DNA of 30,866 nt. It comes from Candidatus Methylomirabilis sp. (GTDB lineage Bacteria; DYJV01). The translations under genes and the position numbers were made by a program. Positions 1-30,796 of the stretch are shown here, piece by piece; the first letter of the stretch is position 1, and each line of letters opens with the position of its first letter. The notes under the pieces are model-generated. The model saw only the letters and a list, made by a program, of their open reading frames with translations, had not been told where the DNA came from and made no database searches. Where the stretch lies: NCBI GenBank assembly GCA_020722945.1, contig DYJV01000028.1, positions 1 to 30,866 on the forward strand, in the 5' to 3' direction.

Positions 1-498
1 TCCATAAACACCGAAGTAGTTAGAAGCAATTCCATAAACACCGTAGGAAGAAGCAGTTCCATAAACACCGTAGGAAGAAGCAGTTCCATAAACACCGTAG
101 CAGCCAGAAGCATGTCCATAAACACTGTAGCAAGAAGCATATCCATAAACACCGTAGGAAGGAGCACATCCATAAACACCATAGCAGCAAGAAGCACATC
201 CATAAACACCATAGCAGCAAGAAGCACATCCATAAACACCGTAGGAAGGAGCACATCCATAAACACCATAGCAGCCAGAAGCACATCCATAAACACCGTA
301 GGAAGAAGCATATCCATAAACACCGAAGTAGTTATAAGCAGTTCCATAAACACCGAAGTCATAAGCAGTTCCATAAACACCGAAGTTAGAAGCAGTTCCA
401 TAAACACCGTAGCAGCCAGAAGCACATCCATAAACACCGTAGCAACAAGAAGTAGTTCCATAAACACCGTAGTTGTCAGAAGCATATCCATAAACATG
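1..498 (-). repeat. In-frame tandem array of 27/30-bp units (GVYG repeats)
   Basis: The conserved core (plus strand tccataaaca) begins at 1, 31, 58, 85, 115, 142, 169, 199, 229, 256, 286, 313, 343, 370, 397, 427, 457 and 487, so spacing is always 27 or 30 bp. That gives 17 full units plus a partial one, each coding 9 or 10 residues. The GVYG core is nearly invariant (one GVYG is SVYG). The linker varies: ASSY, ASCCY, ASGCY, APSY, AYNYF, ASNF and ASDNY, preceded by T, C, Y, H or I. The array continues past the left edge. Similar GVYG-type repeats occur in phage and bacterial fibre proteins. Confidence 0.9.
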
Positions 499-3400
499 AC
501 TTGCTTGAATTGCTCCATTTGTACACATTGCGTAACAATTTGTACCACTGTACATACAAATCTGCAATGGCGCAAAACAACTATATGAACCATCGTTAGT
601 TACAAAATATTTTAATTGAGAACAAATATATACATAATTACATACATAATTGCTATGTATTCCATCTGGGGATATATATGTTAACTTACAACTAATTACT
701 CCAGTACATGAATTAGATAACTCACACGTCATATAATGACAGTTAAACATATTTACATTACGAATACGAATTGCACATCCACTACTTACGTTATATGTAT
801 AACAACCATAATACATCCCATTTATATTAAATTCGGTACAAATTCCACATGATGGGTTTTGAAGATATAATCCAATGAGATTATTGTCACCACAATATAT
901 CAAATGACCACAGTTTATACAAAAACATCCTATACAGCCACTACAAGAGCAAACAGTTCCTCTAATAGTAGCATTATTGAAAGTTGCATTACCAGCAGCG
1001 TCTATGCACCATCCGGTTAATGCTGTGCTATCATAGCACCCGCTGATTGCACCTGCTGAATTTAAGATTAAATTACCAGAATATAAACATGCTGAATTGA
1101 AGTTCCAACCTGCTATTTGCGCTGTAAGCGTGCCAAGATTTAAATCTCTTGACATTTCAAAGAATGGCACTCCTGATTTCGTAGGAGTAAATCCAAAACC
1201 ATAACGAGTTGTAAGATCACCGTTACACCAAATTTGCCCGAACGTAAGATACATTCTATTTCCTGGCAACCCGTCATGCGCATAGAATGTGCCAATGTGC
1301 GGAACACTAGACCCAATTATTGAGCCACCACCCCAAGCATAATCCAAACACGTAGAAATAATCATAGATCCAGCGTTCAAATGTTTTTGAGTAATAGTCC
1401 ATCCACCAATTGTACCGCTAGTAGATTTTAAAGCACCAGCAGGTGTAACTGAGAACGGTGCATCAATCTGAGTAGTAGCACCAGCCCAAAAACCGGCATC
1501 TGGTTTCATTTGAACACGAGTATTGCCATTTCCAGCGTATAAACCTTCTGTTGAACTAATTGTAAAACCACCGATAACACCACACAAGGCACAAATGGTA
1601 CCTGTAAACGTACCAGATGTAGCACATACATTACCACAAACAGTTAAATTTGAGCCATCCCATGCTAATTTAGGCGCAGACGAACCGCCGAATTTAAACG
1701 TACCATCAGTCATGCTGATACATGAACCAGTAGTGCTATTATTCCAGTTCAAAGATGTCAATGTGCCAGACTTGATAGCATTCGCAGTAATAGTACCACC
1801 TTGATTACATTTCCAAGCAGTAGCAACAGAGCCTAACTCTAGTTGTAACCCAGAAACATACAACCATGATTCTGCGGCTGGACGATAGTTATATATCAGA
1901 ATTTTAACAAATGCTGCATTTGATGGCATAACTTTAGTGCCAGAATATCTTCTTGGTGTTGATGTTACATCGCTTCTATCCAAAGCAGCAGGATAGTCAT
2001 AACATATATAGGTTCTATTTATATCATAGTATTCTAAGCCAAGAAATGCCCTTGGTGCGTTTGTACCTTCTTTTGCCAAATACCCACTGAGTGTATAAGT
2101 TGCATTACATTGCACAGGAATAAAGTTAAGTGAGTAAACCTTTGCATAAGTTGTATTATTAGCAGCATAAAGCCTTAATGCATTTGAATTAGATTTTGCA
2201 TAAATCGCACAAATACTAGTTCGATGTACTGTTGCTATATCACTCGACACACCTGTATGAGTAACATATTCACCAATAATAGTACCGCTTGGAATTGAAG
2301 GCAAATATGATGCTGCATATTTTACATCTCTAAAATCTGGGTCTGGCAAGATATTACCATTAGATAATACTTCAATATCTCCTTTGATACTCATTATGCC
2401 GCTTAATGAGTCATATGTCATATATTGACCAGTTGGACAACCAGCAGCAATACCATAAGTGGGCGTTGAGAAGCTACCCCAACCACAGAGATTCCCTATT
2501 CTAATTCGACTTGTAGTGCTAGTCCAAGGTGCACCATCGTGTGTATAAAGATCAATATACGGGCACTGACCATTGAGTATTATACCGCCACAACCTAAGT
2601 AGGAGCCGTAGTTTACAATTGCTTGGCCTTTAGTAAAATTAAATCTTGTGCCAGATTTAATATTGAGATTTACATAACAACCAGCTGTATTGCAACCACA
2701 ATTAATTACACAACCCCAATAATCATTTAATCCATCTTTAATACGAACAAGATCACCAATAGCAAATTGATTTACTTCGTTATTAAGATAGACATTAAAT
2801 GAATCAGATGTTGGATTACAATCATAAACTGACACACCAGCGGGCCTAATCATTGTACAACCACCGATAATACTTATCTGATCTTTGATAAACACGGTGG
2901 TTTTAATTGCACCACGAGCACAAATATTATTAAATTCGGCGTTACCTGTACAATCAATCTTCCAGCCACTAGACCCGGCAATATAGTTGGCAGAAATAGC
3001 ACCTGCTGAGTTTAAGATTAAATTACCAGAATATAAACATGCTGAGTTGAAGTTCCAACCTGCTATTTGATTACAAGCATTATTACCGTTTATGTCAGTA
3101 TCAGCTCTAAACACATAAACATTTACACCACGAGTTACAGCTAGACCATATCTACCAGTCCAGATTCCATTATTATAAGTCTGTCCAATCCATTCGCCAT
3201 AATCAGTACTTAGTCTACGTGTAAAAATTGATTGACAAGTACTATATAATGCTATACCACCAGTTGAAACACTATGGCATAAATAGTTAGGTGTTATTAT
3301 CCATCCACCAATTGTACCGCTAGTAGATTTTAAAGCACCAGCAGGTGTAACTGAGAACGGTGCATCAATCTGAGTAGTAGCACCAGCCCAAAAACCGGCA

Positions 3401-5970
3401 TCTGGTTTCATTTGAACACGAGTATTGCCATTTCCAGCGTATAAACCTTCTGTTGAACTAATTGTAAAACCACCGATAACACCACACAAGGCACAAATGG
3501 TACCTGTCATGTTGACATTACCATTAACAGCATTTATATTAAATGTATTTGTTGCACCATTCCAAGCTTGAAAACCAATACTATTAAATACAATTCCACT
3601 TATTACTCCATTACCAGCATTTAACGCTGTTCTAAAGTCTTTAGCAATTATCTGTTCTGAAGTTGTAATATCAGCATTACCAACTCGTAAAGGATTAACG
3701 CTAGAACTATAAGTACTTTGTGAAGAAGCATTACCAGTCTTATCTACAGCAATAGCTGAATAACTTCTGGCTTCATAATTAGGATCATGTTCATTATCAT
3801 TAAATAATTGTGTAGTCCATCTATCTTCTATTAGTTCTTCACTACCAGAACCAATTTTTCTATAAATTTTAAAATGGGAAAAATCATCAGGTATACCACC
3901 AGTAACATCTAAGTAAATTGTAACACCACCAGTTGTCGGTACAATACTACTAATTATAGGTACACCGGGTGCAATTTGATCAGCAGTTATTGTTAAATAT
4001 GCTTCGGTATTGGGTTGTCCATAATAATGTTTATCACCACTTTCTATACCCAAATCACTCATTAACCCGGTATGACTAATTGATACAGCTCTAAAATTAT
4101 AATTTCCAGAATTTAATCCTTGCCAAATAATATCTAAGTTTTCATCTATTGTACTACCAATAGCTTTAAATGAACTTTCTGGCTCTGTGTTTAATTTGTA
4201 AAACACAGCAATTTGCATAACATTGTTTATTGGTTTTACAAACTGAAAATTAAGTCTAGTTTGTGTGGTTCCATCTGACAAAATATCATTATATAATGTC
4301 AAACTTGTCATTTCTGGTTTATTTGGTTTTGTATAAGCAGAATATGGATTCTGTTCTGGTGAAGATGCTGGTGTTATAGGTGTATAAGTGTACACAGATG
4401 AATCATATTCTCTGGCATCAATTATTGTGTGTTCTTCTGTTTTTTCTATTTGTTCAATAAGGAAAGTCTTAGCAGACCAACCATATTTACCAGCGGTTAT
4501 TGTTATAAGATTACCAGCGTCTAATGTAGATGGTATTCCATTTTCTACCGTAAGTTTTACTCTTTTAAGTTGTAAAATACCTTTTTTAAAATAATATTGA
4601 GCTAATTTATGTGCCGTGTGATCATCAGAGATCAATCTGAATTCTATTTCAGAAGTATTCCATTTACCAATTCTTGTTGCATGTGTAGAATTAATTAAAT
4701 TTGTATCGCCAAGTGGTGATTCTTCGTTCACAGCAGGTTTTTTTCTAAATTTACCACTTTCTGCCTCTAAATCATAACTGAGCTTCATTCTATTAATCTG
4801 TGCTTCTAATTCTGGTTCAGTCCAAGGTTCAACAAAACAATTATAACCATTTTCACCACTTTCATCAAAAGCAGCAGCAACAGTATCCCGAGAACTATCT
4901 ATTGTAAGTTTTATTTTTCCATCTTCTTCATATAATATACCTCTACAACTTCTTAATAGTTCATCAAGCCATATACCAAAATTCTGTTTCTGATTAATGG
5001 TTCCATCTATATAAAAAGCTTGCGTAGCACATTCTGCTATTGCACTTGAAAAATCAACATCACCAGAGTTAATACCAAGACCATAACCTTCGTATTCAGT
5101 TGTTGGTTTTGTAAGTATATTATAGATTATCTGGGCAGGATTTCTTTCAGGTGCAGAATCTACAGAATTTTGAATACCCTGAATATCAGCATAAACTTGT
5201 GCAGTAGCACCATCTGTTAATAAAGGTACTGCTGGTGTTCCATCATCTTCATAGTAGAATTCTACATAGGAAAATCCGGGCCAATCACTTTCTATTCCAT
5301 CAACAATTTCAGGACTACCACTAGAACCAGTGCCACGATAAATACGAACCTTAATATTACGTGAATCATTTGTTGGTTTGTAACCATTTATACCACTAGC
5401 CTCATCATACACTATTTCTTTATTGAAATAGACTTTAGAAACTTTGTATATCGGGCCAGAACCAACCATGAATTGTGATAAAGCAAGATTTATCCAAGCC
5501 AAAGGAAAACGGTAAACATAACCAAAATGAATAGGTACAGCGTTCCAAGATTCATTTATCCCATTTTCTGAATAATAGTCATAAGCTATTTGTGCATCTG
5601 GAAATGGAGTATCTAAATATTCATATCCTATTTCACGAAGTGTTAGTCTTATTGTACTTCCATAAGAATCAATCTTATTAACACGACCAACAAACTTCTT
5701 TGTTACGTTTGAACCATCATCATAATACAAAGTAAATTTCTGATTTAAAAGTCCATAATTTGTCTGTAAAGTATCAAAATAATTATCATGATTACCAAGC
5801 TCTATATTTATAGTTCTAATTCTATTTCCAGTATTTTCGCTCATCTGGAAATAACGAATTAATGAAAAACTATCTACAATCCTTGGTTCCCAGTATTTAT
5901 TATCATAGTCTAATGGTTCAGACGCAAAATAATAATCAACTGAACCTATTGTAGTATGAATTCTAAGCAT
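1..5970 (-). CDS. Giant tail-tip / tail-fibre protein, partial (C-terminus beyond left edge)
   Basis: A minus-strand frame starts at ATG 5970, after an AAGGTGG ribosome site, and stays open for 1,990 codons to base 1. I read it codon by codon and found no stop. Residues 1 to about 540 look like the tail-tip/hub part of siphophage central-fibre (gpJ-type) proteins, which fits its place after the tape measure and distal-tail genes. Two fibronectin-III-like segments follow (about 545-640 and 660-760). Next come beta-rich fibre modules with the IGGW/IGGF signature (about 822-891, repeated at 1456-1525). Between them, about 1200-1385, is a jelly-roll-like segment resembling carbohydrate-binding modules. 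Residues 1670-1830 are extremely Cys-rich, and from about 1824 the chain is a GVYG tandem array. Role (inferred): receptor recognition at the tail tip. The true C-terminus, perhaps a trimerisation or self-cleaving chaperone domain, is not in the window. Confidence 0.82.
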   Translation of the reverse strand, partial: MLRIHTTIGSVDYYFASEPLDYDNKYWEPRIVDSFSLIRYFQMSENTGNRIRTINIELGNHDNYFDTLQTNYGLLNQKFTLYYDDGSNVTKKFVGRVNKIDSYGSTIRLTLREIGYEYLDTPFPDAQIAYDYYSENGINESWNAVPIHFGYVYRFPLAWINLALSQFMVGSGPIYKVSKVYFNKEIVYDEASGINGYKPTNDSRNIKVRIYRGTGSSGSPEIVDGIESDWPGFSYVEFYYEDDGTPAVPLLTDGATAQVYADIQGIQNSVDSAPERNPAQIIYNILTKPTTEYEGYGLGINSGDVDFSSAIAECATQAFYIDGTINQKQNFGIWLDELLRSCRGILYEEDGKIKLTIDSSRDTVAAAFDESGENGYNCFVEPWTEPELEAQINRMKLSYDLEAESGKFRKKPAVNEESPLGDTNLINSTHATRIGKWNTSEIEFRLISDDHTAHKLAQYYFKKGILQLKRVKLTVENGIPSTLDAGNLITITAGKYGWSAKTFLIEQIEKTEEHTIIDAREYDSSVYTYTPITPASSPEQNPYSAYTKPNKPEMTSLTLYNDILSDGTTQTRLNFQFVKPINNVMQIAVFYKLNTEPESSFKAIGSTIDENLDIIWQGLNSGNYNFRAVSISHTGLMSDLGIESGDKHYYGQPNTEAYLTITADQIAPGVPIISSIVPTTGGVTIYLDVTGGIPDDFSHFKIYRKIGSGSEELIEDRWTTQLFNDNEHDPNYEARSYSAIAVDKTGNASSQSTYSSSVNPLRVGNADITTSEQIIAKDFRTALNAGNGVISGIVFNSIGFQAWNGATNTFNINAVNGNVNMTGTICALCGVIGGFTISSTEGLYAGNGNTRVQMKPDAGFWAGATTQIDAPFSVTPAGALKSTSGTIGGWIITPNYLCHSVSTGGIALYSTCQSIFTRRLSTDYGEWIGQTYNNGIWTGRYGLAVTRGVNVYVFRADTDINGNNACNQIAGWNFNSACLYSGNLILNSAGAISANYIAGSSGWKIDCTGNAEFNNICARGAIKTTVFIKDQISIIGGCTMIRPAGVSVYDCNPTSDSFNVYLNNEVNQFAIGDLVRIKDGLNDYWGCVINCGCNTAGCYVNLNIKSGTRFNFTKGQAIVNYGSYLGCGGIILNGQCPYIDLYTHDGAPWTSTTSRIRIGNLCGWGSFSTPTYGIAAGCPTGQYMTYDSLSGIMSIKGDIEVLSNGNILPDPDFRDVKYAASYLPSIPSGTIIGEYVTHTGVSSDIATVHRTSICAIYAKSNSNALRLYAANNTTYAKVYSLNFIPVQCNATYTLSGYLAKEGTNAPRAFLGLEYYDINRTYICYDYPAALDRSDVTSTPRRYSGTKVMPSNAAFVKILIYNYRPAAESWLYVSGLQLELGSVATAWKCNQGGTITANAIKSGTLTSLNWNNSTTGSCISMTDGTFKFGGSSAPKLAWDGSNLTVCGNVCATSGTFTGTICALCGVIGGFTISSTEGLYAGNGNTRVQMKPDAGFWAGATTQIDAPFSVTPAGALKSTSGTIGGWTITQKHLNAGSMIISTCLDYAWGGGSIIGSSVPHIGTFYAHDGLPGNRMYLTFGQIWCNGDLTTRYGFGFTPTKSGVPFFEMSRDLNLGTLTAQIAGWNFNSACLYSGNLILNSAGAISGCYDSTALTGWCIDAAGNATFNNATIRGTVCSCSGCIGCFCINCGHLIYCGDNNLIGLYLQNPSCGICTEFNINGMYYGCYTYNVSSGCAIRIRNVNMFNCHYMTCELSNSCTGVISCKLTYISPDGIHSNYVCNYVYICSQLKYFVTNDGSYSCFAPLQICMYSGTNCYAMCTNGAIQASHVYGYASDNYGVYGTTSCCYGVYGCASGCYGVYGTASNFGVYGTAYDFGVYGTAYNYFGVYGYASSYGVYGCASGCYGVYGCAPSYGVYGCASCCYGVYGCASCCYGVYGCAPSYGVYGYASCYSVYGHASGCYGVYGTASSYGVYGTASSYGVYGIASNYFGVYG
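481..960 (-). other. Cysteine-dense fibre segment
   Basis: These 160 codons of the fibre gene encode 21 cysteines. The codons at 901-960 alone encode six in twenty residues, arranged as CSCSGCIGCFCINC. The segment sits just before the GVYG array. The spacing is irregular, so I see no specific metal-site signature; disulfides or a metal-bound fold are both possible. Confidence 0.7.
1049..1119 (-). repeat. 71-bp direct repeat in fibre gene, copy A
   Basis: Matches 2999-3069 at 69 of 71 positions, offset 1,950 bp and in frame. It encodes the module QIAGWNFNSACLYSGN followed by LILNSAGAIS. The mismatches are at 1060 and 1096. Confidence 0.9.
1398..1605 (-). repeat. 208-bp perfect direct repeat in fibre gene, copy A
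   Basis: Identical base for base to 3300-3507, offset 1,902 bp (634 codons). It encodes one complete IGGF...IGGW fibre module, from TGTICALCGVIGGF to TSGTIGGW. Perfect identity over 208 bp implies a recent duplication or ongoing gene conversion. Confidence 0.95.
2999..3069 (-). repeat. 71-bp direct repeat in fibre gene, copy B
   Basis: Partner of 1049-1119. In both copies this module lies on the C-terminal side of a 208-bp IGGF module, so the two modules were probably duplicated as a larger block whose middle has since diverged. Confidence 0.9.
3300..3507 (-). repeat. 208-bp perfect direct repeat in fibre gene, copy B
   Basis: Partner of 1398-1605. It encodes residues 822-891 of the fibre protein and marks the point where the protein changes from nearly Cys-free to Cys-rich. 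Confidence 0.95.
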
Positions 5971-6733: not shown

Positions 6734-9700
6734 TCACCTGATTCCCAACATTTTCTTTTTAAATTCTTCAATAAGTGCAATTGCACTTGGATCATTGGTT
6801 TTAGCAGCGGATATCATTTTATCTAACATTTTCTGAGCATCACGACTAGAACCAACATCCATAAAAATTATATCACCTTTTTGTGTAGTTCGTTCTTCTG
6901 CCACTCTCATTTTCATTGTTTCTTCTATTTTATTAAATATATCTTCCATTTTACATTGAGCTTCTTTTGCTTTTTCTTTCATCTTCTGAGCATTTTCTAT
7001 CATCAAATTAAACAGATCAGATTGAGCAGCAAACCAGTCATCAGATTCACGTTCGGCATTATTTATCCTATTAAGAATTGTTTCTTTTTGATAATCAAAC
7101 CACATTTGATATGGGTCTTGAAAGTTACCACCAAGATTATAGTTTTCTTTTGTGAATAACATATCATTAATACGATATTTTTCTATATTAGGAATCAAAT
7201 TTAACTGCTTTCTTACATCTTTCATTTCTGGCATATTAAGCACTTCGTTTACAATACTAAAATCATTCATATCTTTGATTGTAGTAAGAATATCACCTTT
7301 TAAATTAGCTTTATTCGCAGCTAATTTTATATTATCATATAGAGTTAAGGCTACTTCATTAAAACCACGATTTATATAATATTTAAAATTATTTACAAGA
7401 TAATCATCTTCTGATATTAAACCAGCATCCATAAACGAATTAATATTGTTAGCAAGATCAAGATAAAATTTTGATAAACTTTCACCTATTTCTAAATAAG
7501 CTTTATCTTTTTCATCATATGTCATGTAAACATCATTCATTAAATTATTAAAAGATTGATATAACAATGAATATTGTTCTTTTATACTATTATCAACACT
7601 GGTTAAAGCATCAACAGCAGCTTGTTTGTTTTTGTTGATATTCGTTTCTGCTTGATATTGAACAAGAGTTTTTTCAATTTCTTTATTAATATTTTCAATA
7701 ACTTCAGAAACAGTCATATTATAGCCTTTGACCATTTCTTCTACTGCAATTTTATAATTTATTTGACCTATAGGAGTAGTACCTTTGGGTATATTGTTTT
7801 TATAAAATTCTGGATTAACCCATTGTGTATCTATTACTTTACCACCTATATCAGATATTCGTTTCAATTCCGAATTAAACCAATCGCGATATTTTTCTTC
7901 AACGGATACATCATCTCCCGTATATTTTGATTGATAATATTGGTCGTAAAATTTACCACTACCAACCATTATACTAGAAGCACCACCAATACTCATATAG
8001 TGGTCATTTATATTACCCTTTTGCAAATTTTCAATTGCTCTTATTCTTTCTACATAACTTTCAAGAGAACTTAATTGTTTAATTTGAAGATTGGGACGTA
8101 TACCTTTTGGTAATTTTGAATAGTCTGGTATACCAGTATTACTAATTATACGATTTGAAGGTAGTTTGCTTAAATCACCACCCATCATATAAATAGATTT
8201 AAGACCATTATTTATACTTACTTGTGCTTGTTTACTAATTTCTTTTAAATTATCAGCAAGTTCTTTCTCTGATCGCATTAAACTTAACTTTGCGTCATAC
8301 CATTCTATGGTTCCATTTTCATAAGCTTTTAATTTATCTCGTTCAATTTCAATATTAGTTTTCATCATAGCTATTTGATTTTCGCCATTCCATTGAGCAT
8401 AAGCGAGATATTCCATTTGTTTATAACCAGTTTCTTTTTCAAGTTTAACTATTTCACTCTGTAATTGTTTGTTTTCATACTGAGCATTGAGTAAGTTATC
8501 ACGCCATTCATCTATTTTTGCTAATTTATCTGGATCAGCATAATCACCAGACGTATAATAATTATATTGTTTCTGGATAATATCAAGTTTGTTCTTATCT
8601 AATTCATTTTGCATTTTAAGTGATTTAAGCTGATTAATTTCTGCAAGTTTATTAATTTCAAACATTTTATTATAATGTTCTTTGCCAGATATTAATAAAA
8701 GTTCAAAATATTTTTTAAGACTATTTATGTAAGCATAAGGATCAGTATTAGCATGTTTTTCTTTTGGGCCTTTAAACCAACCATCACCAGATGACCATGT
8801 AGAATAACCAATTCCGGGGAAATTATAACCCATTATACTATTTGTTATAGATGAACCACTCATGTAATAATTAAGTGCATCTGTTTCTTGTCTATTTACA
8901 AGTTGATTTCTTCTATCAGACCACAGAGTATAAGAGTCTTGTGCAGCTTTAGTTTTATCTTTAGTACCCCCAAATAAACGACCGGGTTGTGTTAAAAACG
9001 CACCAATAGCAGCAGTAGTTAATAATGGGGTTTGATATGCTTTAATAAACTTTTTAACTGGATTCAATGCGCCAAGAATACCACTTCCTTTGGTACCAGC
9101 AACCGCACCAGCAACACCAGCCCTTGTCAAACTTGTAAGATCAATTCCACCAGTAGCACCCACTATACCAGTGCCTATATTCATCATCTGTGCTACGGTA
9201 TTTTTATTTGCACCACCGGCAACACTAGGAATGGCAAAATTACCTAACATACCACTAAATATACCACCAATACTACCATTTGAACCACCACCAAGAACAG
9301 AACTCAAAATACTACTTATACCACTAACACCAGAAGCTTTACCAGTAATACCACCTTGAATGTCAATACCAAGAACCAGTTTTGTAGCAGACATAGCGAG
9401 CATTTTAGCTATAATACCAAGAATTGTATTTTTAACAACATTCCATAAATTTTTAAACATATTACCAATTGATGATATACCTTTTGTCATAACATCAAAG
9501 AAACCAGTTTCAAATGTAGATGTAAGATTATCATTAAGTTGTTTACCAGTTTCATACATCAGTTGACTAGTTTTAAGCCATTCTGATTGTGATTCTAATA
9601 TACCAGCAATAAACACATCAGAAAATCCACCAGTAGGTGTTTGGCCTTCTTTTAAGAAGTCTTTGTATTTAGTAAAAGCAGCGTCACGCATTTCTTTTGA

Positions 9701-12700
9701 TGAACTTGTGATATATTCAGACCAGTTGGGTTCTAATTGTTTTATAGAAGTCATTTTCTGTACAAGAGCTATTTCATCTTTAATAGATTCAATTCGTTTC
9801 CATCGTTCTTTGTTTTCATCTCTAAGAGCTATAGACATTTCTATGTATTTTTTTTTCAATGATTTAATAGCGTCTGTATCGCTTTCTTTTATAAAATCAA
9901 CAGCAGCTTTTTCTATTGATTCTTTTGTTATGTAAATTTTAGAAAGTAAATTTCTAAGATCATCGTTAAATGATTTAAGTTCGTTTGTTTTTAATTCGCT
10001 ATCAATAATAGCTTTAGAAGCAGATTCGGAAGCCACAATCATTGATAATTCTACTTCTAATTCTTCTGCTGATCGTTTTGCTAAATCAATAAGACTGTAT
10101 GATTTTTTACGTAAACTATCTTTCCATACTTGTGTAGATATAGATTCAATCCTTGCAATTTCTTTATTTGTATTTTCATCTATTATAAATGGTAAATCAT
10201 ATATACTTTTTAGCTGTTTTATTATTTTTGGTGCAGATGTTAATGCTATATCAACAATATTATTATCTTTTGATTGCATAGCAGTATCTACAAATTCTTT
10301 GCTTATTGTATTTAATGTTATAGATAAATAACCAATATCTTTTATCTTTTGTTTAAACATATTTGCTGTTTTTTTTATATCTTCTATTTTATTTATACCA
10401 AATTTAGATACGTTATCTTCTTCAAAAGATTTATAAAATTTGTCTATATCATCAAAAACGCCACCATCTTTAAGTATATCTGCAAACTGTTCATAGTTGT
10501 CTATAGTCTGTTTAAATGCTTCCAATGGTTGCTGAACAAATAATTTTAATTCTATTAAAGATTCGTATGGTTGTTTAAATGTTCTAGGTTCTATATTTTG
10601 AGAACCTTTATCTATTTCATCTTTGAATATTTTATTAGCATTTGATAATATATTATCAATATTACCAATAAATCCAAGATTATCTGTAATAAATTGCTGT
10701 TCTTTTCCTATATAGTCTTTTATTTCAACGTGAAGAACAGCAAATTCATTACCTTTGCCTTTCTTTTTAAGTTTTGGGTCTTGGCCAATCTTATTCATTA
10801 ACTCGTCTGATAATTTACGTTGTTTTCCTTCTTCTAATATTACATTCTGAATCATATTAGAAGCTTTGAGATCTTTTATAAGTTTTACAAAAGATTCTGA
10901 TTCTAATACCTGTGTTGATAATGGTTCTCCATTGAGCTTTAATTGATAATCAATTGCCTTACCAACACTATGAGCAGAACCAGTATCTCCTTTACGATAG
11001 CCACTTGTCATTATAGGTTCATAACCAGCATTTTTAAATATATCAACCAATCTAGCACCAGCTATTTTTGTTTCTCTAGTTAAACCACTAATAGCATCTG
11101 GTCTTGATTTAATCAATTCTTTGGCTATCAATTTAAGTTGAGCTTCACCATCAGCTTCCATAGGTTTTAAATATTCTTTAACAGTATCAAACACACCAAT
11201 ACCTGAATTTTTTAAAGATTCCATGGATTTAGTTATTTTGTCTATGTATAAATTCAAATCAAGTTGATCAAATGTTTTAGATGAATTGTTTAATTTTTCA
11301 GCTATTTTTATTAAAATATCTTTTGATTTATCAATGTTATCAAACACAGCAGATATTTTTTTCTCAGAAAATAATAATTCTGTTTCTCTGGCTCTCAATT
11401 TTGGTATATCTTTTTCAGAAACATTAGCATAATGATTCCTTATAAAATCTAATTCACTGTGTATTATATTTAAAAGAGATTTTTTAACTTTTGGGTTTGT
11501 ACCAATTGTAACAAGAAAATCTGCGTTTTGATATTTTTTAGCAACTATATCTTCTTTTAATCCTGTTGATTTTGAAATTGTAGAAATTATAGTTTTATTG
11601 TCTATAGAAGAAATTGCATCTTTAAAATTACCTAAAAGACTAGACAGTTTTGATTCTAATTTAGATACTGTTTCTTTTCCAGTAAGCCAAGCCCACATTT
11701 TATAAAATGTAGTACCTTCTATAGACTTATCTATACTTGCAAATATAATTTTTACAGTATCCGATAAAAGCATAATAGAAGCAATTGCTAATGTTATTTT
11801 TCCTGCTATACTTGCTATAGTTTTTAGCCCACTAAGACCTAACATATTCATCATTTCTATTGCTGTCTTTAAAGACATACTAAAACCAAGTAATATATTA
11901 ATAATATTACCCGGCCCAAATAAGAATGAATAAAGTACACCACGTTTTATAATATCACTTGTACCAAGACCAACAAGTTTGTCAACAATAGGAAATAATG
12001 TATTATTTAAAACATCTGCTACTAATTTTAAATCTGCTTTTACTCCTTTAAACAATTTTACAGATTCTTCATAAACACTTTCAAACATTTTTTTACTGAA
12101 TTCCATAGTGTTTTTAATAAAGTTTTTTACATCATTACTCATTATAGTTTTTTGGAATGTTCTATAAGCAGCAGTTATTGTTTCAAAAACATTAGATATA
12201 TTTTCTGTGATACTTTCAATATTAGGAGTTATTCCTAATAATTTAAGAAGCCCACCAGAATTATCTATTAAAAGATTTTCTGTAGTATCAATTATAGAAC
12301 TAAGCGAATTTGATATAGATTTAGTAAATTTTTGAAATGTTTGTGTTGATGTAAATAATTCAATTTGTTTTCTTATATTAATAATTTTATCTACAACTTT
12401 ATCATAAAATCCAGATTGACCAATTGTTTGTTGGAATTTAAACCATTCGCCTTCAATTTTATTAATTTGCACAGAAAATTGTCTTGATGCTTTTTCTAAT
12501 GATGCTTTGTCATATAAGTTACTAAGATATTTTGATAGGGTTTTCAAGATTGCTTCTGGGTTATTTTTAAATTTAGTTATTGGTGTACCTTTTTCATCAA
12601 AAATAAGATTAACCGGTATTTCAAAACGTCTTTGTAATGAGCGTAAATCACCAGATAATGCTTCACGAAAAGAGAACTGAGCACCAGCTATCCCCCATTC

Positions 12701-14332
12701 TGGTTCTATCTGTGATAATGCCATTATAACTTGATAAGCATCTTTTAAAGTTTCATGTACTTTAGTAGAATCCTGTAACATAGTTCTTAATGGTGTGATA
12801 AGAGCAAATGCTTTTGTCGATTGATATACTTCTTCATACGAAATTGGTAACTTTTCTGCAACTTTAAAAGAAGCTTCCATAAGTTTATTAACAGCAGGCA
12901 TGGTTTTCATCATACCAAGCAGACCTATTTCGAATCCTCTCATTTTATCTGTTGTTGTAATAATACCAAGACCAAATGATTTTATTGCAATACTTAAACC
13001 AGTAAATGCAGCAACACCACTAACACCAATACCAATTATTAATTTACTAAAAGTTTTAATATATGTTAATATATTCTTAAATGCATTATAAACACCTTCA
13101 AACATTTTAATATAAGTCGTTTTGAAATTTGAACTATTTACAAAAAATTCATTCATTTTGTTTTTAATTCTATCAAATGTACCACTTTGAACAACGTTAA
13201 AACTTTGTTTTACTATTCTTTGTTCATTTTTATAAATTTTTTCCTGATAATCCATGTAATTTTTTGCAGCTTGTACTCCAAGCTTAATATTATCCATTAG
13301 TGCCTTTTTCTTAGCATTTTCTATTTTTAAATCACCTTGATACATTTTTTCTTGTGTTTTCCAGTAATTTGAAGCACGTAAATTATCAAGCTTAATAGCA
13401 CTCATGAGAGTATCTTTTGACTGTTTTGTATAATAATCCTTCATATCTTGCATTACATTTCGGTTTCCCTTATTTATAATGCTGTCATTTATAAATCCTT
13501 TTATATTACCTGAACCAAGATTTGTTACTTTTTTTACTGCTTCTTTTACTCTTTTTTCCAATTTATTAAGTTCTTTTATTTGTTTTCTTTCTATATCACC
13601 ATAGTATTTAGCCATAGACTGCAAAGCAGCAGACTTTTGTACATTAAATTGTTCGTTGATTAGTTCTAATGGACTTTTCATCTTTTTAACTACAGTTATT
13701 ATATTTTTATTTATAATATCTATAGATTTTTTTGTTTTTTCCATTTCTTTTGCTATATATAAATCTTGTTCTAATGCCATTTTTGTAGCAATATTTTGTT
13801 CTGGTGTTAATATTTTAAAATTAATTAAATTAGGTTCCTGTCTAAAAAATTTATTACCAGAAAATGAACGATAATCTTTTGCTGATAAATATTTTGCACC
13901 GAATGGTGCAGCAGCACCGGCAGCAATCTTAGCTATATTACTTTTACTTTTTTCTGTCTGACTTATTGTTTGTTTTTCCAATGATTGAATGTGTTTAATC
14001 ATTGTGTTTACTATTTTACCAAACTCAACATCGTTTGTTTTCTGTACTTGTGCTGCAACAGTTGTCATTGTAGATTTAAATTCATTACTAATTGTTGTAG
14101 CCATATTTTTAAATTCAGTTCTAAAAAAAGAACTAATTGTTGTATTTGAGCCTGTCTTACCAAAAAAAGCCATTCTTATTTTCGATTGAATACCTTTTCC
14201 AGCTTCTTCAATCTTGCTTTCAAGAGATTTAAATGACTTAGCCATATTTTTAAGTTGTGTATCAACCATTTTAAATGATTCAGCATCTAACTTTAACTTC
14301 AGATAAAATTCTGTTATTTTCTTTTCAGCCAT
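6734..14332 (-). CDS. Tail tape measure protein with embedded M15-like peptidase motif
   Basis: A protein of 2,532 residues. I chose ATG 14332 (MAEKKITEF) because AGGAG sits 8 nt upstream; an upstream ATG at 14368 has no such site. It sets tail length and fills the tail lumen. It is rich in long coiled-coil helices, with a hydrophobic stretch near residues 430-460, a second at about 805-870, and a Gly/Ala/Ser-rich hydrophobic block at about 1617-1777. Around residue 560 is ALSGDLRSLQRRFEIP, a pattern common in tape measures. An M15-type peptidase signature lies at about 1077-1212. At roughly 0.15 nm per residue the tail would be near 380 nm. Its ends fit the neighbours: chaperone genes upstream, distal-tail gene 6 nt downstream. 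Confidence 0.93.
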   Translation of the reverse strand: MAEKKITEFYLKLKLDAESFKMVDTQLKNMAKSFKSLESKIEEAGKGIQSKIRMAFFGKTGSNTTISSFFRTEFKNMATTISNEFKSTMTTVAAQVQKTNDVEFGKIVNTMIKHIQSLEKQTISQTEKSKSNIAKIAAGAAAPFGAKYLSAKDYRSFSGNKFFRQEPNLINFKILTPEQNIATKMALEQDLYIAKEMEKTKKSIDIINKNIITVVKKMKSPLELINEQFNVQKSAALQSMAKYYGDIERKQIKELNKLEKRVKEAVKKVTNLGSGNIKGFINDSIINKGNRNVMQDMKDYYTKQSKDTLMSAIKLDNLRASNYWKTQEKMYQGDLKIENAKKKALMDNIKLGVQAAKNYMDYQEKIYKNEQRIVKQSFNVVQSGTFDRIKNKMNEFFVNSSNFKTTYIKMFEGVYNAFKNILTYIKTFSKLIIGIGVSGVAAFTGLSIAIKSFGLGIITTTDKMRGFEIGLLGMMKTMPAVNKLMEASFKVAEKLPISYEEVYQSTKAFALITPLRTMLQDSTKVHETLKDAYQVIMALSQIEPEWGIAGAQFSFREALSGDLRSLQRRFEIPVNLIFDEKGTPITKFKNNPEAILKTLSKYLSNLYDKASLEKASRQFSVQINKIEGEWFKFQQTIGQSGFYDKVVDKIINIRKQIELFTSTQTFQKFTKSISNSLSSIIDTTENLLIDNSGGLLKLLGITPNIESITENISNVFETITAAYRTFQKTIMSNDVKNFIKNTMEFSKKMFESVYEESVKLFKGVKADLKLVADVLNNTLFPIVDKLVGLGTSDIIKRGVLYSFLFGPGNIINILLGFSMSLKTAIEMMNMLGLSGLKTIASIAGKITLAIASIMLLSDTVKIIFASIDKSIEGTTFYKMWAWLTGKETVSKLESKLSSLLGNFKDAISSIDNKTIISTISKSTGLKEDIVAKKYQNADFLVTIGTNPKVKKSLLNIIHSELDFIRNHYANVSEKDIPKLRARETELLFSEKKISAVFDNIDKSKDILIKIAEKLNNSSKTFDQLDLNLYIDKITKSMESLKNSGIGVFDTVKEYLKPMEADGEAQLKLIAKELIKSRPDAISGLTRETKIAGARLVDIFKNAGYEPIMTSGYRKGDTGSAHSVGKAIDYQLKLNGEPLSTQVLESESFVKLIKDLKASNMIQNVILEEGKQRKLSDELMNKIGQDPKLKKKGKGNEFAVLHVEIKDYIGKEQQFITDNLGFIGNIDNILSNANKIFKDEIDKGSQNIEPRTFKQPYESLIELKLFVQQPLEAFKQTIDNYEQFADILKDGGVFDDIDKFYKSFEEDNVSKFGINKIEDIKKTANMFKQKIKDIGYLSITLNTISKEFVDTAMQSKDNNIVDIALTSAPKIIKQLKSIYDLPFIIDENTNKEIARIESISTQVWKDSLRKKSYSLIDLAKRSAEELEVELSMIVASESASKAIIDSELKTNELKSFNDDLRNLLSKIYITKESIEKAAVDFIKESDTDAIKSLKKKYIEMSIALRDENKERWKRIESIKDEIALVQKMTSIKQLEPNWSEYITSSSKEMRDAAFTKYKDFLKEGQTPTGGFSDVFIAGILESQSEWLKTSQLMYETGKQLNDNLTSTFETGFFDVMTKGISSIGNMFKNLWNVVKNTILGIIAKMLAMSATKLVLGIDIQGGITGKASGVSGISSILSSVLGGGSNGSIGGIFSGMLGNFAIPSVAGGANKNTVAQMMNIGTGIVGATGGIDLTSLTRAGVAGAVAGTKGSGILGALNPVKKFIKAYQTPLLTTAAIGAFLTQPGRLFGGTKDKTKAAQDSYTLWSDRRNQLVNRQETDALNYYMSGSSITNSIMGYNFPGIGYSTWSSGDGWFKGPKEKHANTDPYAYINSLKKYFELLLISGKEHYNKMFEINKLAEINQLKSLKMQNELDKNKLDIIQKQYNYYTSGDYADPDKLAKIDEWRDNLLNAQYENKQLQSEIVKLEKETGYKQMEYLAYAQWNGENQIAMMKTNIEIERDKLKAYENGTIEWYDAKLSLMRSEKELADNLKEISKQAQVSINNGLKSIYMMGGDLSKLPSNRIISNTGIPDYSKLPKGIRPNLQIKQLSSLESYVERIRAIENLQKGNINDHYMSIGGASSIMVGSGKFYDQYYQSKYTGDDVSVEEKYRDWFNSELKRISDIGGKVIDTQWVNPEFYKNNIPKGTTPIGQINYKIAVEEMVKGYNMTVSEVIENINKEIEKTLVQYQAETNINKNKQAAVDALTSVDNSIKEQYSLLYQSFNNLMNDVYMTYDEKDKAYLEIGESLSKFYLDLANNINSFMDAGLISEDDYLVNNFKYYINRGFNEVALTLYDNIKLAANKANLKGDILTTIKDMNDFSIVNEVLNMPEMKDVRKQLNLIPNIEKYRINDMLFTKENYNLGGNFQDPYQMWFDYQKETILNRINNAERESDDWFAAQSDLFNLMIENAQKMKEKAKEAQCKMEDIFNKIEETMKMRVAEERTTQKGDIIFMDVGSSRDAQKMLDKMISAAKTNDPSAIALIEEFKKKMLGIR
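10690..11110 (-). other. M15-like zinc peptidase domain inside the tape measure
   Basis: The coded segment (about residues 1077-1212) contains SGYRKGDTGSAHSVGKAIDY and then LHVEI. This matches the SxHxxGxAxD plus distal His pattern of MEROPS M15 D-Ala-D-Ala carboxypeptidase/endopeptidase folds. Candidate zinc ligands are H1121, D1128 and H1201; a nearby Glu (E1196 or E1203) could be catalytic. Expected role: local peptidoglycan cleavage during DNA injection. Catalytic competence is inferred. Confidence 0.65.
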
Positions 14333-21829: not shown

Positions 21830-21862
21830 ATTCATTCTCCGATTTATTTCTAATTCATTTCC

Positions 21863-21888
21863 ATTAACAACTGGTAACAGTTGTTAAT
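21863..21888 (-). promoter_or_regulatory. 5' hairpin of the capsid transcript
   Basis: A perfect 11-bp inverted repeat (21863-21873 and 21878-21888, 4-nt loop) starts about six bases after the predicted transcription start and precedes the capsid ribosome site by about 22 nt. There is no U-tract. Such hairpins at the extreme 5' end often protect mRNA from decay. Confidence 0.55.
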
Positions 21889-21900
21889 CTCCTACAACAG

Positions 21901-21929
21901 ATCTTAGCATATCAATTATTTATTGTCAA
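21901..21929 (-). promoter_or_regulatory. Strong sigma70-type promoter of the major capsid gene
   Basis: Minus strand: TTGACA (21929-21924), a 17-nt spacer and TAAGAT (21906-21901), with a TGC extended -10. It lies in the gap between protease and capsid genes and points at the capsid gene. Confidence 0.7.
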
Positions 21930-21941
21930 TTTTCGTTTCGA

Positions 21942-29262: not shown

Positions 29263-29895
29263 ATGAAAAATATAAATGTTCAGATTTTAAACCTTCCACC
29301 AAAAGAAATTTTATTGTCAGCTATACAAAAACCATATAACACAAAGAATCCATCGTTTGAAACAGTTAAAAATGTAATTAAATTGTTAAAACATGGTTCA
29401 GTTGCAGAACATGTGTTTATTAATTTTGATATAACAGGAATATCAAGACTTTGCCTACAAGAACTAGCACGTCATAGACATGCTTCTTTAACTGTACAAA
29501 GTACTAGATTTACGTTAGATAAGATGCTTATAAAAGAAAAAATTAGTGGTGGTGATTTAGAAGAATATTTTGTAACGCCTTTTTATAAAGAAGATGAATG
29601 GGATTGCTTAGAAGATTATAATGAATATATTTCTTCTCTAAAAAGCTCATGGTTTGTCGATGTAGAACGAATGAAATTATTCAAGAAAACCATAAATTTA
29701 TCTAACGATTTTCTGAAGTATTTTATTCCAGAAGCACTAAGAGTTAACTTAACTTGGTCAATTAATATCAGGTCTTTGCAGAATTTTCTTACACTTCGTT
29801 TAAACAAAACAGCACATTTTGAGATTAGATATTTAGCAAATTTAATTCTTAATTCTATAAAAAATACATATGTTTACGAATTAATAGACATATAA
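29263..29895 (+). CDS. thyX: Flavin-dependent thymidylate synthase ThyX
   Basis: A 210-residue protein with the ThyX signature RHRxxSxxxxSxR at R70-R82 (RHRHASLTVQSTR). The N-terminal HGSVAEHVFINFDITG (44-59) matches the 'sH.S..EH..f.F.i.g' element that contacts FAD, and SINIRSLQNFLTLRLNKTAHFEIR near the C-terminus matches the 'N.R.L.hfl.lR....Aq.EIR' element that binds dUMP and FAD. It methylates dUMP to dTMP with FAD, NADPH and methylenetetrahydrofolate. AGAG lies 8 nt before ATG 29263. It is at the short end of the family size but has all core motifs. Confidence 0.93.
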   Translation: MKNINVQILNLPPKEILLSAIQKPYNTKNPSFETVKNVIKLLKHGSVAEHVFINFDITGISRLCLQELARHRHASLTVQSTRFTLDKMLIKEKISGGDLEEYFVTPFYKEDEWDCLEDYNEYISSLKSSWFVDVERMKLFKKTINLSNDFLKYFIPEALRVNLTWSINIRSLQNFLTLRLNKTAHFEIRYLANLILNSIKNTYVYELIDI

Positions 29896-29912: not shown

Positions 29913-30491
29913 ATGAATATACGAGTTTTTCAAGATATATTGGAGCAGATTCACAACCAACAAATTAGACAATTTACAGCTAAGTGTTTAGAAGATACAC
30001 CAGATTATATTGAGAAAATACCAGCATCAACAACAGGAAAATATCACCCATTAGAAGCCACAAAAGAAGGTGGTCTTGTTTGGCATATTCGTCTTGCTTG
30101 TTGGTACGCAAATATGTTCTTTAATGCGTTTCAATGGAATGGCGACCCGAAGAAAAATATAGAACCAGATATTCGAACTGATATTATTTTATCTGCATTA
30201 TTATTACATGATATTGGTAAAAAGGCAGATTATGGTAAAAATTTTTGGGAATATAAAAACCATCCTATTGTTGCTGGTAATATGATAGAAAAAAATAAAT
30301 CAATATTACCTGAAAAAGTTTTTACTCTGATAAAAAGTTGTATTATATATCATATGGGCCCGTGGACTCCACCATCTATATTAAAAGATATTAATAATTA
30401 TAATATTTGTGAATTAGTTGTATATCAATGTGATTACTTGTCCTCACAAAAAACATTAAAAGTCATCTTATGTGATAATATCAATTGTTAA
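29913..30491 (+). CDS. HD-domain phosphohydrolase
   Basis: A 192-residue protein with a complete HD metal site: H58 (GGLVWHIRLA), H99-D100 (LLLHDIGKKAD), H117 (YKNHPIVAG), H147 (IIYHMGPW) and D174 (YQCDYLSS). The leading PASTTGKYHPLEATKEGG (37-54) is characteristic of a group of HD hydrolases found in phages and bacteria. Such proteins cleave phosphate esters, often of nucleotides or dNTPs. Because it lies just after ThyX and a nucleotide diphosphohydrolase, a dNTP or nucleotide phosphatase role is the most likely. Its start has only a weak ribosome site. It is not obviously the dATP-specific DatZ. Confidence 0.75.
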   Translation: MNIRVFQDILEQIHNQQIRQFTAKCLEDTPDYIEKIPASTTGKYHPLEATKEGGLVWHIRLACWYANMFFNAFQWNGDPKKNIEPDIRTDIILSALLLHDIGKKADYGKNFWEYKNHPIVAGNMIEKNKSILPEKVFTLIKSCIIYHMGPWTPPSILKDINNYNICELVVYQCDYLSSQKTLKVILCDNINC

Positions 30492-30511: not shown

Positions 30512-30571
30512 ATGCGTCTTTTAAATATTAGAAGTATAGGACTAAGTACGCTGGGGCACAGCAGATTTTAA
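30512..30571 (+). CDS. Possible 19-residue leader-like ORF
   Basis: GAGAG precedes ATG 30512 by about 4 nt. The peptide MRLLNIRSIGLSTLGHSRF ends at TAA 30569-30571. It is in the same frame as the tnpB-tail remnant just downstream and is probably part of that ancestral reading frame rather than a functional peptide. Confidence 0.2.
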   Translation: MRLLNIRSIGLSTLGHSRF

Positions 30572-30652
30572 GCTTGTGGAGATAGTTCATTAAAGCTGTC
30601 ATTGAAGCAAGAAAAAGAATGCTTACTAAACTAAGCAGAAGTCACGGGGTAA
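30542..30652 (+). pseudogene. Eroded C-terminal tail of a tnpB-like gene
   Basis: One frame from 30542 reads LSTLGHSRF-stop-ACGDSSLKLSLKQE, then KECLLN-stop-AEVTG-stop. The elements T-x-GH-x-F, ACGDSS, KQE and E-V-TG in this order and spacing are typical of the extreme C-terminal ends of IS200/IS605-family TnpB proteins. Two in-frame TAA codons sit where Gln and Lys codons would have been. No catalytic part of tnpB, nor tnpA, lies in the window, so only the 3' end has survived. Recognition is by eye from family knowledge. Confidence 0.45.
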
Positions 30653-30668
30653 GTCCTGTGGAGTGTCA
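30542..30668 (+). ncRNA. Candidate orphan omega-RNA-like transcript
   Basis: In IS200/IS605 elements the omega (guide) RNA scaffold overlaps the 3' end of tnpB and the stop codon. Here only that part remains. A 7-bp stem with a TAAG loop (30643-30649 with 30654-30660) spans the ancestral stop codon, and weaker pairings occur upstream. The stretch is visibly more GC-rich than its surroundings. If it is a scaffold, the guide would begin near 30668 with AAAAAGATGAAAGAAATTTG. Both the RNA and its function are inference. Confidence 0.35.
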
Positions 30669-30707
30669 CAAAAAGATGAAAGAAATTTGGATGGAATAAA
30701 GCAAAAC

Positions 30708-30745
30708 GCCTTGGGAGCGTCTACCAAACTCCCCATGGCATTTTT
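30708..30745 (+). terminator. Bidirectional intrinsic terminator
   Basis: Arms around 30708-30717 and 30729-30739 pair over about nine positions (GCC, TGGG and AG) with one mismatch and one bulge, followed by A and five T (30741-30745). On the minus strand the same hairpin is followed by GTTTTGC. It would end transcription from the rightward operon and any RNA made from 30542 onward. Confidence 0.6.
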
Positions 30746-30753
30746 CGTAGCGC

Positions 30754-30796
30754 GTCCTGATTTTTTCAGGACTGTCCTGACATGAGCCAAAGCTCA
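30754..30796 (+). other. Cluster of competing hairpins
   Basis: GTCCTGA (30754-30760), TCAGGAC (30766-30772) and GTCCTGA again (30774-30780) give two mutually exclusive stems sharing the middle arm. TGAGC-CAAA-GCTCA (30783-30796) forms a third stem. From 30797 to 30866 I see no gene; it is AT-rich with a weak minus-strand TTGACA (about 30841-30847). Confidence 0.45.

Follow-up and report, generated by a model that had tools for sequence, protein, structure and literature searches.

The right end of this phage contig carries the 3' tail of a tnpB gene whose remainder is missing, which raises the question of whether the tail is the relic of a transposon or a guide RNA that the phage keeps in its own right. 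The DNA analyzed (the window) is the whole of contig C29, 30,866 bp long, in an assembly of 2.51 Mb and 184 contigs. C29 is phage-encoded and includes Gp23-type capsid, portal, and terminase genes. Its left end is a break within a tail-fibre gene (window 1-590) that contig C79 apparently continues at its own right end (C79:17371-17914); the site of the assembly break has degenerate GVYGxAS repeats. Because this gene apparently spans both ends, C29 and C79 are probably parts of one phage, and the IMG/VR records 3300000227_000026 and _000043 have the same sequences as C29 and C79. The phage is in fragments, and the bin may miss part of it.

A 46-bp near-identical repeat, CGTAGCGCGTCCTGATTTTTTCAGGACTGTCCTGACATGAG, is found in inverted orientation at window 30744-30789 and C166:7917-7962, near the ends of both contigs, and the C166 copy cuts into a methyltransferase-like ORF. 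C166 (L023) also contains an anaerobic ribonucleotide reductase gene (612-3476) that an intein-like insert apparently splits. A dUTPase-like ORF on this contig (3914-5053) has a LAGLIDADG-like stretch 5' of it, so that the phage is seemingly rich in homing-type elements. Short tandem repeats around TTTTGATGACGCTATTATTATA occupy the contig end at C166:1-80.

Reading frame, fold, and conserved scaffold

The features of the locus are collected in Table 1. No gene lies between the end of the HD gene at 30491 and the end of the contig, an interval that includes the gene-free stretch described in an earlier note made from the letters of this DNA. The TnpB C-terminal frame recognized in that note is also present, reading LNIRSIGLSTLGHSRF, stop, ACGDSSLKLSLKQEKECLLN, stop, AEVTG, stop, but the stops (at 30569, 30632, and 30650) are three rather than two. 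A complete IS200/IS605 element was not found, tnpB being absent upstream except for the C-terminal remnant. Pfam searches in three frames gave no TnpB match, the one match being a weak one to HTH that came from the flank, and blastn and tblastn against annotated phages and plasmids gave no useful match. Rfam release 15, at gathering and permissive thresholds, has no family for the element; the matches were chance or unrelated ones and the tRNAs of C79.

Table 1. Features of the orphan omega-RNA locus and its flanks in the window
Feature	Position	Strand	Basis or remarks
ThyX thymidylate synthase gene	29263-29895	+	PF02511; 5' of HD gene, same strand
HD-domain protein gene	29913-30491	+	PF01966; directly 5' of element, same strand
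tnpB C-terminal reading-frame remnant	30512-30652	+	counterpart GRNILEAGHALLACGENPLGISMKQE in PVC bacterium AB1-3
Orphan omega-RNA (reRNA) scaffold, 124 nt	30546-30669	+	R1 match; stem 1 with 4/5 pairs, other defining helices and pseudoknot intact
Stem 1, loop GGGCA	30549-30553 with 30559-30563	+	5/5 pairs covary in 19 relatives
Pseudoknot, 5' part GGC	30555-30557	+	pairs with GUC 30665-30667; 3/3 in window; equivalent of ISDra2 pseudoknot (PMC10097598)
Conserved core GATTTTAAGCTTGTGGAGA	30564-30582	+	includes in-frame TAA at 30569
Stem 2, CUUG/CAAG	30573-30576 with 30608-30611	+	CYTG/CARG covaries; pairing in 19 relatives is 100%; window 4/4
Stem 3a	30581-30587 with 30594-30600	+	enclosed by stem 2
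Extra hairpin TGCTTACTAAACTAAGCA	30620-30637	+	unconstrained MFE fold; common to the three close copies
Terminal stem, corresponding to stem 4, CACGGGGTAAGTCCTGTG	30643-30660	+	unconstrained fold; pair comparison among copies
Pseudoknot, 3' part GUC	30665-30667	+	directly before the end, GTGTCAC then guide; homology of three close copies ends there
Predicted guide AAAAAGATGAAAGAAATTTG	30670-30689	+	first 16-20 nt of flank; ISDra2 architecture (PMC10097598); differs per copy
Decayed HTH-gene piece, guide-side flank	30672-30706	+	91% identity to intact HTH_3 gene, C166:7280-7313

The 19-mer GATTTTAAGCYTGTGGAGA, in which one position is C or T, is present in 22 viral stretches, this phage among them. 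Its T form occurs in nine genome contigs, one of which is a coding match without omega-RNA features; apart from that match, the 19-mer is usually followed 3' by GAARCARGAA, a hairpin, and then an end of the form GTTCAC, GTTCAA, or GTGTCAA. Intact tnpB genes read the core DNA in other frames, as SDFKLVENK (L038) and PDFKPVEKK (L041), so that what is conserved is the RNA, whose motif includes the TAA. On this comparison, the TAA at 30569 is RNA sequence and not decay.

Covariance model R1 was derived from alignment A2, which comprises 19 core-bearing sequences from other phages and from bacteria, TnpB-linked and other omega-RNAs with none from this phage, and it matches the window copy with 60.7 bits over 30546-30645 (E 1.3e-9 for the whole 2.5-Mb assembly). 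In A2, unguided RNAalifold recovered the CYTG/CARG helix as well as stem 1, in which all five pairs show both-side changes. The named structure has 94% of cells paired, as compared with 75% on shuffling and at most 47% when slid, and a covariation score of 0.499, as compared with 0.165 on shuffling (0 of 500), in controls that leave some relatedness. All 57 pseudoknot pairs are formed in the 19 relatives, as compared with an expected 48.5 under shuffling (0 of 20,000), and they covary, GAA or GGA being found with UUC, GGC or GAC with GUC, and GGC with GCC.

In the window, the outermost pair of stem 1 is a C-A mismatch, common to the three close copies described below, and the other four of its five pairs are formed. 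The unconstrained fold of 30546-30669 contains stems 1, 2, and 3a, the extra hairpin, and the terminal stem. Its energy is ordinary (z -1.22; 25 of 200 shuffles are equally good), and the foldability put forward previously was dropped as evidence; the case is a comparative one. Mapping of the fold and the pseudoknot on ISDra2 places the scaffold at 30546-30669, so that the right end given before as 30668 is moved to 30669 and the guide would start at 30670. With the R1 match, the covariation of stems 1 and 2, and a pseudoknot with three of three pairs, the view that the tnpB 3' tail encodes an omega-RNA has been upheld, and it is well supported by the comparative sequence evidence that 30546-30669 is a TnpB omega-RNA scaffold without tnpB in a phage.

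Copies, guides, and nuclease genes in the assembly

Besides the window copy, R1 matches C166:507-630 (55.7 bits), C79:6716-6841 (53.3 bits), and C79:13892-14016 (52.1 bits). The last is too diverged for blastn, and the next R1 match in the assembly has an E value of 0.47. At least four orphan copies with four different guides are thus present on phage contigs, where four lie within about 57 kb and represent two distinct lineages. The pseudoknot of the copy at C79:13892 is GAA/UUC, and that of the copy at C79:6716 is without its middle pair. Three close copies are 91-95% identical, and on the right they all stop being alike precisely where the element ends; beyond this point the flanks and guides are unrelated. 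Their left boundaries differ, the homology starting at varying points, and no left end or left hairpin, as expected of an IS605 MITE, is common to them. The three have a truncated left part in common, suggesting that they probably spread after the loss of tnpB; without a common left end, they probably did not spread as an ordinary IS605 MITE. Among their 13 variable columns, seven are at paired positions; a consensus pair is broken by one change, as compared with 3.4 expected (P 0.13, not significant), so that pair-keeping among the close copies is suggestive only. On the minus strand, the C79 and C166 copies have two hairpins followed by T-rich tails.

A nuclease acting in trans, from the host, another element, or elsewhere in the phage, was part of the earlier proposal. 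The search for it was run in the 2.5-Mb bin, which may miss phage parts, and gave no TnpB gene with the PF07282, PF01385, and NF040570 profiles and no Cas12f-like gene. The sole real TnpB-profile match in the bin is a second tnpB tail remnant, on C79; an NF040570 match in C68 lies inside a host gene and was rejected as chance. The 20-nt guide, for which a match in a host or rival phage had been envisaged, has an exact match in the bin only to itself. HTH genes like the intact relative on C166, which has two mismatches to the 20-nt guide, are candidate targets, but near matches in the bin are no commoner than for a reversed control. A query with the HD gene for relatives with an empty site returned the same phage only. 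No promoter-like site was found on the + strand from 29913 to the element, nor a strong promoter immediately 5' of the window copy, and the HD gene is the likely source of read-through into the orphan RNA.

A second type of repeat is present on C79 (L074) at 757-909, 4483-4635, 7028-7253, 9600-9770, and 12775-12976 and in the window at about 21836-21930. It comprises a tnpB-tail-like stretch, VDRDMNGARNVFLQNISLG, and two hairpins with compensatory changes, and its end, GGAAATARATCGGA, lies immediately 5' of start codons. A 153-bp stretch is identical in two copies, some copies have a TTGACA-17-TAACAT site on their 5' side, and a shortened repeat of this type precedes the window's major capsid gene. 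Identification as an omega-RNA was not accepted, because the match of the 3' motif in another phage fell within an HNH gene and was a coincidence of coding sequence; the repeat is possibly a second orphan-RNA family or a phage leader module.

Orphan omega-RNAs in other phages

A broader sequence pattern matched at least 120 viral stretches from IMG/VR. To class cores as linked or orphan, a TnpB profile was built on 50 proteins from this analysis. Among the matches listed, 60 cores have a near-complete TnpB, 39 are without an upstream TnpB, for 21 the TnpB is partial, and 17 lie too close to an edge; orphans are therefore common in viral contigs, with 39 of about 99 classifiable cores among these matches. 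This count is biased by sampling with an exact pattern, by breaks in contigs, and by divergent TnpBs, and it includes a few orphans that match the model weakly. In the same listed matches, a stem 1 of at least 5 bp is formed in 29 of 37 orphans and 44 of 54 linked cores, as compared with 18-22% on shuffling. The orphans there share the strand of the upstream gene in 26 of 37 cases (p 0.01) and that of the downstream gene in 26 of 35 (p 0.003), and 13 of the 30 orphan-bearing viral records have a TnpB match elsewhere on the record. Promoter enrichment 5' of orphans is slight on average.

Orphans L042 and L045 have a common block that runs from a sigma-70-like promoter to GTTCAC, and the flank upstream of the block differs. 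Compensatory changes separate the two: U-A replaces a G-C pair in stem 1, and stem 3a retains its pairing although its sequence is rewritten. In the terminal stem, compensatory changes also distinguish the tnpB-linked L039 from the orphan L044 on one 163.6-kb contig (CATGAA/TTCGTG and CACAAC/GTTGTG, respectively). The nearest relative of the window subtype is in L049 (IMGVR_UViG_3300027822_000280), a Gp23-type phage in which two tandem orphans (1914-2240) lie between a TATAAATA site and a terminator-like hairpin; TATAAATA is a T4-late-type promoter that is enriched in this stretch. A TnpB gene at 4610-5707, about 2.4 kb from the orphans, has the RuvC motifs Asp, Glu, and Asp (read by eye) and no omega-RNA of its own detectable with the model (R1-type). 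L049 is the best picture of what appears to be a decoupled pair of orphan and TnpB.

The earlier proposal that the RNA was kept while the protein was lost fits the covariation at the level of the class, the compensatory changes, and the equal folding of orphan and linked cores, but the close-copy test (P 0.13) adds no significant support. The comparison indicates that RNA-level selection acts on the orphan class, and it suggests that phages may keep guide RNAs working with a nuclease encoded elsewhere.

Possible function and comparison with known systems

We consider it moderately probable that 30546-30669 is a stand-alone omega-RNA that has lost tnpB, is expressed by read-through, and serves a TnpB in trans that cuts empty-site siblings. 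The orphan RNA would be transcribed by read-through from the thyX-HD genes, and its 5' end would be trimmed by a TnpB supplied in trans by the host, by another phage infecting the cell, or by a part of this phage that was not recovered. Such 5' processing by TnpB is known for linked omega-RNAs (PMC10278001). The guide would be the 16-20 nt after 30669, and the nuclease would cut DNA that bears the flank beside a TAM but no element, that is, the "empty" site of sibling phages. The carrier would be favored through exclusion or through copying driven by recombination, much as a homing element would whose nuclease is separate. TnpB has been reported as a drive against element-free plasmids (PMC11870625), a logic that would fit co-infecting phages too. 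More tentatively, stand-alone TnpB-type guide genes could be common in phages, with several per genome that bear different guides and in part have their own promoters. They would arm a TnpB encoded elsewhere to cut or convert the genomes of competing phages, as a dispersed repertoire without nucleases that stems from transposon ends.

The element could also be a dead IS605 right end that is decaying and whose structure is left from its linked past. The tnpB-derived sequence agrees with this, as do the stem-1 mismatch of the close copies, the broken pseudoknot pair at C79:6716, and the P of 0.13 in the pair test. An inert relic is nevertheless unlikely in view of four copies of two distinct lineages in about 57 kb, the truncated left part that points to spread after tnpB loss, and orphans elsewhere that fold as well as linked cores, with compensatory changes and a common promoter that is not that of tnpB. 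The identical right boundaries might instead reflect a non-autonomous IS605 transposon of the MITE or PATE type, moved by TnpA in trans and retaining the omega-RNA only as its required right end, and real MITE-like copies with both ends conserved are present in PVC bacterium AB1-3. Y1 transposition requires both ends, however, and the three phage copies share neither a left end nor a hairpin; recognition of the right end alone as DNA would also leave the covariation of stem 1 and the pseudoknot unexplained, which makes such a transposon very improbable.

Phage RNA anti-CRISPRs block or misdirect nucleases, and the RNA could similarly be a decoy that binds a TnpB or Cas12f-like nuclease of the host or a rival, as had also been suggested before. 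The intact scaffold and a guide without an obvious target in the bin would suit a decoy, but the partner gene is absent from the bin searches and the present evidence fits a decoy and a working guide alike; we regard the decoy as improbable. There is little likelihood that the hairpins act as a terminator or 3'-UTR for the flanking genes, with the omega-RNA origin incidental: although the C79 and C166 copies have minus-strand hairpins with T-rich tails, the coding strand is without a T tract 3' of the hairpins, and the pseudoknot and single-stranded core are kept though unneeded for termination.

TnpB guides are regarded as parts of transposons that record the insertion site. If phages retain the guide and drop the nuclease, the guide would be a gene in its own right, much like the separation of guide and effector in CRISPR systems. 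Phages would then contain a hidden class of small-RNA genes, overlooked by protein-based annotation and Rfam, and the action of TnpB guides in trans between mobile elements would become directly testable. Stand-alone phage TnpB omega-RNAs were not described in the open-access literature covered, a partial coverage that gives weak evidence of absence.

Altae-Tran et al. in 2021 reportedly described stand-alone, trans-acting IscB omega-RNAs in Ktedonobacter. These resemble the window in having a scaffold without a neighboring nuclease gene, but they belong to the IscB/Cas9 lineage and a bacterial chromosome, whereas the window has a TnpB-lineage scaffold in a phage and a nuclease that was not found in the bin. 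In the PVC group bacterium AB1-3 (L026, L029, and L031), IS605-derived MITE-like elements keep the entire omega-RNA region. Like the window, they have this region without tnpB; their left and right ends are conserved, whereas a left end is not shared among the phage copies. RAGATH-18, the reRNA of IS607 TnpB, adjoins TnpB in 64% of cases, implying that 36% do not, and is likewise a conserved TnpB RNA but of another family (PMC11061315). The TldR guide RNAs of prophages are phage-encoded TnpB-type guides kept for a new use, as the window guide may be, but there the protein and guide are encoded together, whereas the window has no protein (PMC13418256). A close structural counterpart is the TnpB omega-RNA of the IS200/IS605 element ISDra2, known from cryo-EM (PMC10097598), which, like the window RNA, is at the tnpB 3' end and right end of the element. 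The two have in common stem 1, stem 2 with its flanking G.A and U.G pairs, stem 3a, the terminal stem, and a pseudoknot in which the side of stem 1 pairs with the bases that immediately precede the guide. The window differs from ISDra2 in the absence of tnpB, an extra hairpin before the terminal stem, a shorter stem-1 loop, and the presence of several dispersed copies.
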